From assembly GCF_030586465.1 (NCBI RefSeq), contig NZ_JAUQYP010000001.1:2026981-2090980 (forward strand): 64,000 nucleotides of DNA, written 5' to 3'. Origin of the DNA: Actinotalea lenta. GTDB lineage: Bacteria; Actinomycetota; Actinomycetes; Actinomycetales; Cellulomonadaceae. Below are positions 39,863-41,618 of the stretch, in pieces. The position numbers and the translations under genes are program-made. The notes beneath the pieces were generated by a model, which saw only the letters and a list, made by a program, of their open reading frames with translations, searched no databases and was not told the DNA's origin. Numbering within the stretch: the first letter of the stretch is position 1; each line of letters starts with the position of its first letter.

Positions 39863-39866
<4 letters not shown>

Positions 39867-40177
39867 GCCCCGTCTCGGTGGCCGACGTCGAGGAGGCGAT
39901 GCGCGACGTCATCGACCCCGAGCTCGGCATCAACGTGGTCGACCTCGGGCTGGTGTACGGCGTCGTGGTCGACCAGAACAACCACGCCGTGATCGACATG
40001 ACGCTGACCTCGGCGGCGTGTCCGCTGACGGACGTGATCGAGGACCAGTCCGCCGCGGTGCTGGACGGCATCGTGGACGGTTTCCGCATCAACTGGGTGT
40101 GGATGCCCCCGTGGGGTCCGGACAAGATCACCGACGACGGCCGCGAACAGCTCCGAGCCCTGGGCTTCAACGTCTAG
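39863..40177 (+). CDS. sufT: SufT, MIP18/DUF59 Fe-S maturation factor
   Basis: A 104-residue DUF59 protein that helps mature Fe-S proteins. The core VEEAMRDVIDPELGINVVDLGLVYGV and TLTSAACPLTDVIEDQ, which holds the conserved cysteine, are intact. It closes the suf operon; the TAG stop lies 12 bases before the inverted-repeat element at 40190. Confidence 0.94.
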
Positions 40178-40189
40178 CCCCCACCCACC

Positions 40190-40222
40190 CCCCTGGTGGT
40201 GATCAAGGAATTCCTGCCCACC
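40190..40222 (+). repeat. Left terminal inverted repeat, 33 bp
   Basis: Begins CCCCTGGTGGTGATCAAGGA and continues through an EcoRI-type AGGAATTCCT palindrome to GCCCACC. It is the exact reverse complement of 40962-40994. Confidence 0.9.
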
Positions 40223-40231
40223 CAGAGGTGG

Positions 40232-40245
40232 TGATCAAGGAATTC
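40232..40245 (+). repeat. Internal direct copy of the 14-base core
   Basis: TGATCAAGGAATTC repeats the core of the left terminal repeat (40200-40213) 32 bases later, also preceded by GGTGG. Confidence 0.9.
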
Positions 40246-40316
40246 GTGCTCGGCCTCGGGTTCCACGGGTCGGGTCGCGGCTACGTGCTTCTCGGCGGCC
40301 CTCGTCGGCACGAGCC

Positions 40317-40882
40317 GGGCTTTGCGCGCCACCGTGGCACGGTGTCACGGCGACCACACCGACGCGCACCGCCACGGATCTCCTGCGCTGGGCGCCGTCC
40401 TACATCGGGCTCGCCGTCCTGGACGAATGGGCCCATCGGGGCGTGGTCTCGCCCGACGACGTCCGGAACCTCCTCGCACGCCTGCGTGGTCAGCGCTTCG
40501 TCGCCAAGGCCCGCAAACTCGCCGAGCTGTGCGAGCCCGCGACCGAGTCGCACGGCGAGTCGTGGATGCGCCTGCGGATCGTGGACGCCGGGCTCCCGAG
40601 GCCAGAGGTCCAGATTCCTGTGGTCCCGGCGGGAGGGAGCTCTACCGGCTCGACGCCGGCTACCCGGAGCTTCGCCTCGGCTTCGAGTACGACGGCGAGG
40701 AGTGGCACCGCGGAGCGCAGATCGCCGCCGACGAGGCCCGGCGGGACGATCTGCTGCACCGGTTCGGGTGGACCGTGGTCGCGGCTACCCGGGAGAAGGT
40801 GCTCGGCGCGCGCCCGGCCATCGAGCGCGTGGTGGCGGACCTGATCGGGTGGGCGGGCCCCGTCGCGCGGCGCGAGTGGTGA
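40317..40882 (+). pseudogene. Truncated, frameshifted AbiEi/DUF559-type nuclease gene
   Basis: One frame up to about 40640 reads GVTATTPTRTATDLLRWAPS, then LAVLDEWAHRGVVSPDDVRN and SHGESWMRLRIVDAGLPRPE. The continuation, RELYRLDAGYPELRLGFEYD and GEEWHRGAQIAADEARRDDL to the TGA at 40880, is in a different frame, one base back. Joined, they form the C-terminal two thirds of an actinobacterial AbiEi-like protein with a DUF559 (PD-(D/E)XK, Vsr-like) domain; the N-terminal HTH part is missing. A one-base loss near 40640-40650 explains the shift. No promoter or start is seen. Confidence 0.75.
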
Positions 40883-40907
40883 CCGCAGACAGCGCACCGG
40901 CGGGCTC

Positions 40908-40984
40908 GAATTCCTTGATCACGGCCTTCGGGTGGGCACGAGTTCCTTGATCAGCCCCTGGGGTGGGCAGGAATTCCTTGATCA
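40908..40984 (-). repeat. Inverted copies of the core at the right side
   Basis: The reverse-complement core appears at 40908-40921, 40940-40953 (one base changed, GAGTTC for GAATTC) and 40971-40984, with periods of 32 and 31 bases. The last is part of the terminal repeat. Confidence 0.88.
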
Positions 40985-40994
40985 CCACCAGGGG
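40962..40994 (-). repeat. Right terminal inverted repeat, 33 bp
   Basis: Exact reverse complement of 40190-40222. Its last base directly precedes the ecfT stop codon (TTA on the plus strand at 40995-40997). Confidence 0.9.
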
Positions 40995-41618
40995 TTACCG
41001 GGGCTGCGGTGGGGGGAGGTTGCGGGCCGTGAGGGCTTCGGCGGTGGTCTGGGCGCGACCCACCGCGCGGATGGCCAGGGGGACCAGGAGGGCTCGGGGG
41101 CTGCGGTCCAGGCCGCGCGCGCGGGCGGCGTCGCGGGTCTCGCCGGCCATGGTGACCAGGGCGGGCATCGTGCGCAGCATGAGCGAGATGGCCAGCGCGA
41201 CGGCCTCCGGGTCGACCCCGACGCGGCGCAGCGGTCGCAGCGCGCGCACGGCCGCGTCCAGCAGCGCGTCGGCCCGGGTGGTCACCGTGACGACCGTCGC
41301 GGCGAGCACCAGGCTCACGAGGTCCGCCGCGAGCTCGACGCCCACCGGCCAGCCGCGGCGCCAGGTCTGGTAGCCGCCCACCAGCGCGGCCGTGACCAGG
41401 ACCGGCGCCAGCCCGCGCAGGGTGGACCGCCACGGCAGTCGCGCGACCACCGCGAGGACGACGGTGACGACGAGCACGCCGAGGGCGGACCACGGCCCGC
41501 GCAGCACCACGAGACCGACCCCGAGCAGGGCCAGCCCACCGAGCCGCACCCCCAGCGGGGAGCGGTGCACGATGGTCGCCCCCGGCCGGTAGAGGCCTGC
41601 CGGATCGAGCCAGCTCAC
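40995..41618 (-). CDS. ECF transporter membrane coupling subunit (EcfT/BioN)
   Basis: A 207-residue energy-coupling factor T subunit. After the start GLYRPGATIVHRSPLGVRL there are about four to five membrane helices, then a cytoplasmic coupling segment with the ARG-type motif AARARGLDRSPRALLVPLAI. It follows ecfA with a GTGA overlap and belongs with bioY just upstream, so it probably couples ATP hydrolysis to biotin uptake. The gene ends against the inverted-repeat element. Confidence 0.88.
   Translation of the reverse strand: MSWLDPAGLYRPGATIVHRSPLGVRLGGLALLGVGLVVLRGPWSALGVLVVTVVLAVVARLPWRSTLRGLAPVLVTAALVGGYQTWRRGWPVGVELAADLVSLVLAATVVTVTTRADALLDAAVRALRPLRRVGVDPEAVALAISLMLRTMPALVTMAGETRDAARARGLDRSPRALLVPLAIRAVGRAQTTAEALTARNLPPPQPR

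Follow-up and report, generated by a model that had tools for sequence, protein, structure and literature searches.

The stretch at positions 40190-40994 of the window, by which we mean the whole 64,000 nucleotides of Actinotalea lenta DNA analysed here, is 805 bp long and is framed by the stop codons of sufT (40177) and ecfT (40995). It has inverted ends, five copies of a core sequence and a broken gene inside. An earlier note on this DNA had described inverted ends, cores and a nuclease relic at this place, and we confirmed that observation. The features are given below; the two flanking genes carry the names used in the earlier note.

39863..40177, + strand: sufT, flanking gene; stop 12 bp before the left end of the element
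40190..40223, + strand: left terminal repeat, 34 bp, perfect inverse of 40961-40994 (sequence comparison)
40200..40213, + strand: core copy 1, exact
40232..40245, + strand: core copy 2, exact, 32 bp past copy 1
40377..40625, + strand: first piece of an AbiEi/DUF559-type nuclease relic, 83 aa, 35-59% identical to most kin over ~80 aa (alignment to kin)
40628..40852, + strand: second piece of the relic, the nuclease core, in another frame, 75 aa, 36-52% identical to kin, keeping D and ExDG (alignment to kin)
40908..40921, - strand: core copy 3, exact
40940..40953, - strand: core copy 4, 1 mismatch
40961..40994, - strand: right terminal repeat, 34 bp, perfect inverse of the left terminal repeat (sequence comparison)
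40971..40984, - strand: core copy 5, exact
40995..41618, - strand: ecfT, flanking gene; stop abuts the right end of the element

The two terminal repeats show 100% complementarity over their 34 nt. The perfect identity of the ends that had been claimed thus stands, and their length has to be corrected from 33 to 34 bp. The wider arms (40190-40252 and 40901-40963) are complementary at 83% over 63 nt. The 14-bp core is TGATCAAGGAATTC. Two copies lie on the + strand at the left and three on the - strand at the right, with start-to-start steps of 32 bp on the left and of 32 and 31 bp on the right; this is the direct pair and inverted triple at 31-32 bp steps described before, one of the copies having a single mismatch. 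As only 0.05 matches with up to two mismatches would be expected by chance in 64 kb, five cores are far above chance; none of 100 shuffles reached five, and a chance origin of the cores was rejected. No transposase is apparent among the open reading frames between the arms, which agrees with the earlier note.

The pieces of the relic align to residues ~135-220 and ~225-300 of kin of ~305 aa. Since this alignment begins only at about residue 135, the AbiEi-like N-terminal part, that is the first ~135 residues of the kin, is not recognised in the relic. Pfam likewise matches only the C-terminal part of the AbiEi plus DUF559/MTES_1575 architecture, with 20.1 bits for MTES_1575 and 12.9 bits for DUF559, both below the curated cut-offs. 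The gene is truncated and frameshifted, as had been proposed: its N-terminus is missing and the two pieces are in different frames. This copy of the nuclease is dead. An alignment of 23 kin has S, E, D and ExDG as invariant residues, and these can still be read in the pieces.

The kin themselves have a composite structure. Their N-terminal halves match AbiEi models in all six proteins scanned, and their C-terminal parts match MTES_1575, DUF559 and, weakly and in one protein, Vsr. At E<=0.1, MTES_1575 was matched by 8/8 proteins (none above the cut-off) and DUF559 by 6/8 (three above the cut-off). A sequence profile matched the PDB entries 3hrl (E 2.7e-6) and, more weakly, 3r3p, a mobile intron protein (E 0.0023) that we take to be I-Bth0305I. 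A search of 50,697 phage records with one protein of the set (L389) found no match. I-Bth0305I is described as a multidomain enzyme of the EDxHD homing endonuclease type, its target being almost 60 bp long (PMC3943268), and another paper, in a section on inteins, assigns a DUF559 gene to the EDxHD homing endonucleases (PMC9403480).

The core repeat in the A. lenta genome

With one mismatch allowed, the core occurs in 50 copies in the 3.3-Mb genome, and the reversed pattern in none. A longer core pattern gave 50 matches here and, across 18 congeners, one match in G014 and none in the other 17. Thus, within the genus sample the core is private to this species. In a search of genome contigs with the 14-mer core, the matches listed were scattered and look like chance.

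We read 25 clusters of the core in this genome. They consist of inverted pairs, mostly 32-35 bp apart, of direct runs at 31-33 bp, of one single copy and of mixtures. The inverted pairs can form a hairpin, and in several of them (L158 and L161; by eye) the variable arm positions match each other. The arrays lie beside stop codons: 30 of 38 outer cluster edges are no more than 45 bp from the stop codon of a gene that runs towards the array, compared with 11.4% of random intergenic edges. Genes were called with a simple codon-usage script trained on the 64-kb window. At five edges (L151:1642, L157:1297, L164:1561, L165:1205 and L169:1230) the adjoining gene is predicted to stop at the initial TGA of the core, and these stop codons look as if the repeat had replaced the original gene end.

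Only the two clusters of the element, among the 25 read, adjoin a DUF559 gene of known position (three of the six DUF559 matches in the genome are listed). One other place (L151:1642-2510, C1:2710641-2711509) has a ++ / --- layout like that of the element and encloses a lipoprotein-like open reading frame (by eye), not a DUF559 gene. Locally, therefore, the repeats do sit at gene ends that have no DUF559 gene, which the earlier note would have taken as a sign of an ordinary repeat family associated with the nuclease by chance. The wider surveys reverse this conclusion. An ordinary repeat with an accidental relic was the explanation that fitted the A. lenta data at first, and it was dropped after the surveys of the congeners and of the order.

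The genome contains no match to the Y1 transposase/RAYT family (PF01797) at E<=1; the same search finds matches in 10/14 control genomes. Within 14 bp of the 50 cores, GTAG or its complement is present 0 times, CGTC six times and GACG five times, so that there is no constant tag.

Repeats around DUF559 genes in other genomes

In the congeners, many standalone DUF559/MTES_1575 genes lie between arrays or hairpins of a common core, which mostly differs from genome to genome. At 20 congener DUF559 loci, a shared 10-mer was clear in 10 and weak in two. We then applied a flank test, which requires a 10-mer that is shared by both flanks, has at least three copies and at least two A/T, and is non-coding. 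The test is strict and misses G+C-only arrays. Among DUF559 loci of the genus with a gene model, 12/21 pass; this set left out L342 and L345 (contig edge), L214 (stop inside) and L170 (from A. lenta itself). For the order, a profile of 19 DUF559 proteins had matches in 113/119 sampled genomes, up to 13 per genome, and loci were chosen regardless of repeats. Here 15 of the 23 best-hit loci with a gene model pass (gene models were present in 23/30), and 18/30 returned loci pass when no gene model is required.

The relic clade gave a more uniform result. With the first relic piece as query, 60 of 198 genomes of the order, A. lenta included, had matches. All relic-clade loci (kin in other genera) with a gene model, 26 out of 28, pass the flank test (26/26). 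A first count of 29/29 had included L387, which was dropped as it lies at a contig edge and its flanks overlap, and L380 and L382, which had passed through a palindromic 10-mer of single inverted ends. Of further loci that were fetched, 13/18 pass, two of the 20 having no gene model; one of these loci, L447, is the same locus as L397. Unselected genes behave differently: 4/650 pass in four genomes, all of the genus, and 0/156 in five genomes of other genera. The four that pass are one DUF559 gene, one regulator (presumably of LacI type) and two genes beside repeats of a similar kind. Thus, all testable relic-clade loci are bracketed by repeats, as are about half to two thirds of the wider sets.

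The loci that fail, 8/23 in the order and 9/21 in the genus, count against the model proposed below, since some of these failures may be real. So do the two other DUF559-type genes of A. lenta, L435 (C1:1906633-1907493) and L436 (C1:1662129-1662977), both of which fail. Several loci deserve a description of their own. L332 is visibly flanked by repeats and is missed by the test. The L435 gene lies between G+C-only tandem repeats, which the test ignores by design, and the L436 gene between shared short pieces, GGAGGTGCGC. A further A. lenta locus, L170 (C1:1318465-1319232), has a DUF559 gene with an internal TAG, and its flanking repeats share CACGCGGCGA with a related gene in L333. Giant MTES_1575 proteins (L189-L209) showed no flanking repeats, but most of these loci cover only one flank and are therefore not a valid control.

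Within the relic clade, the left and right flanks of the same locus match in 26/26 cases. Mismatched left/right pairs match in 73/650, and such matches are to be expected where the cores of related elements resemble each other. Strictly inverted arrays are present in 27/34 loci (the relic-clade set and the further fetched loci together), and 73 of 101 same-strand core steps are 20-22, 31-33 or 42-44 bp, near two, three and four helical turns. GATC is part of the top shared core at 13 of the 19 nearest kin loci and at one of nine farther loci; examples of such cores are TGATCATGCA, TGATCTTGCA, TGATCATGAA, TGATCGTCGC, GTGATCATGG and TGATCAAGCA. In L437 and L447 the core is CGATCAAGGAA, of which ten letters, GATCAAGGAA, are common to the core of the element. 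Because 13/19 have GATC cores and two carry GATCAAGGAA, the dead gene belongs to a clade whose near members mostly carry the repeat type of the element. The top core lacks GATC in the remaining 6/19, including L383, which is among the closest (51% identical), and this counts against our preferred interpretation. One locus whose top core is without GATC, L380, has TGATCATGCA at its outer ends. In G043, four relic-clade paralogues have cores that are different though related.

The core and the protein covary. For 59 loci with repeated 8-mers, and with 59 same-locus pairs (homologous outer flanks) left out, a core 8-mer was common to 14/44 pairs at a protein similarity of >=0.4, to 15/143 at 0.25-0.4, to 4/248 at 0.15-0.25 and to 16/1229 at <0.15. 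In 2000 permutations the mean was 7.3 and the maximum 22, compared with 29 observed (p<=0.0005); kinship among the loci may inflate this covariation somewhat. As 26/26 relic-clade loci are flanked, most near kin have GATC cores, and core and protein covary, the association is not due to chance. The earlier note had suggested that a DUF559 nuclease gene may travel flanked by arrays of the sites that it recognises. The flanking and the covariation bear out the association; that the arrays are recognised and that the gene travels is what we infer from it.

Some cognate cores are also dispersed through the genomes that carry the nuclease gene. Copies of GTGATCATGCA number 90 in G040, 106 in G058 and 413 in G037, three genomes in which it stands next to a relic-clade gene. 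G109 has 24 copies and G051 has 68; the cores beside the genes of these two genomes are close variants of it (TGATCTTGCA, TGATCATGAA). In G000, G007 and G043 there are 2, 1 and 5 copies, and the reversed control gave 0 in all eight genomes. A de novo repeat search found two families in G007 (400 kb) and one in G015 (336 kb). One of these results is a blind test: family B of G007, detected within the first 400 kb, turned out to flank a DUF559 gene located at 1.82 Mb, 1.4 Mb away, and the link had not been sought from the side of the gene. The G015 family also flanks a DUF559 gene, with 6/8 copies in the stretch next to it; as the sampled stretch ran up to that gene, this is no independent test. 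In G017 the search (400 kb) gave no 12-mer family, and nearly all copies of its core lie at its DUF559 gene. The cognate cores sampled in G015 and G017 sit mostly at the gene itself and show little dispersal, which counts against the model. Family A of G007, with the core CGAGCACGTCC, has direct copies at 19 bp and inverted copies (L252:16317, L260:4164, L266:2427) and no assigned DUF559 gene, a further point against the model.

A different case is the congener G009, where an unrelated core, GCAGAGTGGAACGA, is present in 39 exact copies. Two non-congeners have one match each to this core, and the remaining congeners have none. The repeat (L187, L220-L248) is often arranged as core+ (30 bp) core+ (26 bp) core-. 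Despite this dispersed family, no standalone DUF559 gene was located in G009 by a PF18741 search of the incomplete assembly, and we count this against the model as well.

Comparisons of related loci give some signs of movement. Downstream of sufT, neither the relic nor TGATCAAGG is present at any of 17 congener loci (two of which end after 117 and 138 bp). In two of them (L173 and L185) sufT and ecfT are separated by no more than ~50 bp. Another seven have a different stretch of ~1 kb between the two genes, which in L172 is a gene that we take to encode a putative peptidase, and at eight loci ecfT was not found in the available stretch. The absence of relic and core from all 17, two of them with sufT and ecfT nearly adjacent, supports arrival of the element in the A. 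lenta lineage. The sequences fit such an arrival, loss elsewhere being the alternative. Comparison with the congeners shows no target-site duplication, although their junctions have diverged too far for certainty.

In the related genomes G101 and G142 (L380 and L382), a DUF559 element occupies the same locus in opposite orientations between colinear flanks. The two ends are alike within each element, and outside their shared part they differ between the species. At one orthologous place, G040 and G058 have arrays built on a common core, with extensions that differ. A comparison of G005 with G018 shows that both bracketing hairpins are conserved and that the sequence around them has diverged. 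These patterns are consistent with homogenisation or with renewed insertion; no cut, copy or insertion event was caught in the loci compared.

Proposed mechanism and alternatives

The element is likely to be the decayed remnant of one member of a large actinobacterial family of repeat-nuclease elements that seems not to have been described before. In this family the enzyme would bind and cut the cores and repair would spread the arrays. By analogy, the family may best be read as a REP/RAYT-like system in which a nuclease of Vsr/EDxHD type replaces the HuH transposase. REP/RAYT systems ('REPtrons') and RAYTs flanked by TIRs ('TIRtrons') are described as having species-private palindromic intergenic repeats at high copy, as singles and inverted pairs, which adjoin the 3' ends of genes; the enzyme gene is flanked by repeats or TIRs, and enzyme and repeat coevolve (PMC3733652, PMC8266576). 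High-copy private palindromic repeats are found here also (50 copies in A. lenta; 24-413 copies of GTGATCATGCA in five genomes), as is an enzyme gene between repeats (the DUF559 gene in 26/26, 15/23 and 12/21 loci, with controls at 4/650 and 0/156). The systems differ in that the bracketed gene is a DUF559/MTES_1575-type nuclease with an AbiEi-like N-terminus and not a HuH Y1 transposase, in that no constant GTAG/CGTC tag stands beside the 50 A. lenta cores, and in that direct tandem arrays at near-helical steps are common in the repeat-DUF559 loci. Because the Y1 enzyme and the constant tag are both absent from A. lenta, we do not class the element as REP/RAYT. A RAYT/Y1 protein as the cognate enzyme was rejected, the genome having none (PF01797, E<=1).

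Other known systems share parts of the design. The weak profile match to 3r3p (E 0.0023) suggests a link of the proteins to EDxHD (Vsr-fold) homing endonucleases such as I-Bth0305I. A homing gene normally interrupts its own recognition site, and the occupied allele is immune. The loci examined here, unlike EDxHD homing endonuclease genes, are free-standing bacterial genes; their repeats, which are putative cut sites, are complete on both sides of an open-frame DUF559 gene and are dispersed. The N-terminal halves resemble AbiEi antitoxins of type IV toxin-antitoxin systems (AbiE) in 6/6 proteins. They differ from these in that the AbiEi-like part is followed by a nuclease domain and the gene is bracketed by a common core. 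The C-terminal domain is like the Vsr mismatch endonuclease, DUF559 (PF04480) and MTES_1575 (PF18741). In the DUF559 literature searched, mainly titles and the openings of abstracts, we found no repeat association for these three families. No description of DUF559 proteins with cognate repeats appeared among the open-access matches listed either; subscription papers lie mostly outside these, and priority is thus uncertain.

In our model, an intact element would be a gene of ~300 codons bracketed by short core copies, often as tandem arrays that are inverted on the two sides. The protein would bind the phased cores as double-stranded DNA, and the AbiEi-like N-terminal part is probably the part that reads the core. 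It would then nick or cut at the bound cores. Repair copying from another array may spread short arrays to the ends of genes and homogenise them, and may now and then copy the nuclease gene as well. In A. lenta, the first ~135 residues of the nuclease are gone and the rest is frameshifted, and its population of 50 repeats has outlived it, as happens with orphan REPs.

The placement of the arrays might instead reflect a function for the host. If they were ordinary 3'-end hairpins, kept by selection as bidirectional terminators or mRNA stabilisers, DUF559 genes would merely have settled between convergent genes. The outer edges in A. lenta (30/38 within 45 bp of a stop, 11.4% at random), the hairpins that inverted pairs can form and the matching variable arm positions in several loci (by eye) all favour this, and a terminator role also fits the strict 3'-end placing. 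It does not predict genome-private cores, covariation of core and DUF559 protein or bracketing of DUF559 genes far above other genes, and direct arrays (++, ---) alone cannot form a long hairpin; we find it quite unlikely as the whole explanation. The covariation, the AbiEi-like N-terminal matches and the many steps near multiples of a helical turn would also be natural if the arrays were operators, through which an AbiEi-type repressor-nuclease regulates its own gene while dispersal has some other cause. Yet arrays are present on either side of the gene, including past its 3' end, and are mostly mirror images; moreover, the flanking core reaches 90-413 copies in three genomes and the A. lenta copies lie at 3' ends of genes, not at promoters. 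We regard the operator explanation as unlikely. Autoregulation and a terminator role may both be true in addition to the nuclease-driven spread proposed above.

The remaining alternatives make the nuclease incidental. The inverted arrays could be the ends of a classical MITE/IS family that depends on an unrelated transposase for its movement and carries DUF559 as a passenger. Terminal inverted repeats together with short derivatives do resemble an autonomous element with its MITEs, and congener junctions without the element agree with this. But the Y1 transposase (PF01797), the one transposase family searched, is absent from the A. lenta genome, and a core that follows the nuclease sequence is unexpected for a passenger, which makes this very unlikely. 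We think it just as improbable that the element alone is an accident, an unrelated DUF559 relic caught between two arrays placed independently at the 3' ends of sufT and ecfT. Only its two clusters of the 25 read adjoin a DUF559 gene of known position among the matches listed, another ++/--- pair (L151) encloses the lipoprotein-like frame seen by eye, and L383, among the closest kin, has a different core. Against such an accident, the kin of the relic mostly carry the same core type, two with GATCAAGGAA, and the two ends of the element are identical over 34 bp.

If the repeat-nuclease model is true, a REP-type population would be driven by a double-strand-DNA nuclease and not by a HuH transposase. 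An uncharacterised nuclease family would gain a predicted DNA target for many of its members, readable from the flanks of the gene itself. Nuclease specificity would thereby become directly testable, and the family could supply many natural nuclease-site pairs. Additionally, the model would suggest, for one big bacterial group, how species-private palindromic repeats without RAYT originate and are kept up. A broader version can be offered tentatively, and here our doubts slightly outweigh our confidence: a widespread, self-spreading actinobacterial system, with several protein-core pairs per genome, in which a Vsr-fold nuclease of evolvable specificity would cut its own phased arrays, while repair would write arrays to host 3' ends, homogenise them and at times carry the gene.

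At L375, a DUF559 gene is bracketed by CGCTCTCTCA in nine copies spaced at exactly 32 bp, of which three precede or follow it on one side and six stand inverted on the other.
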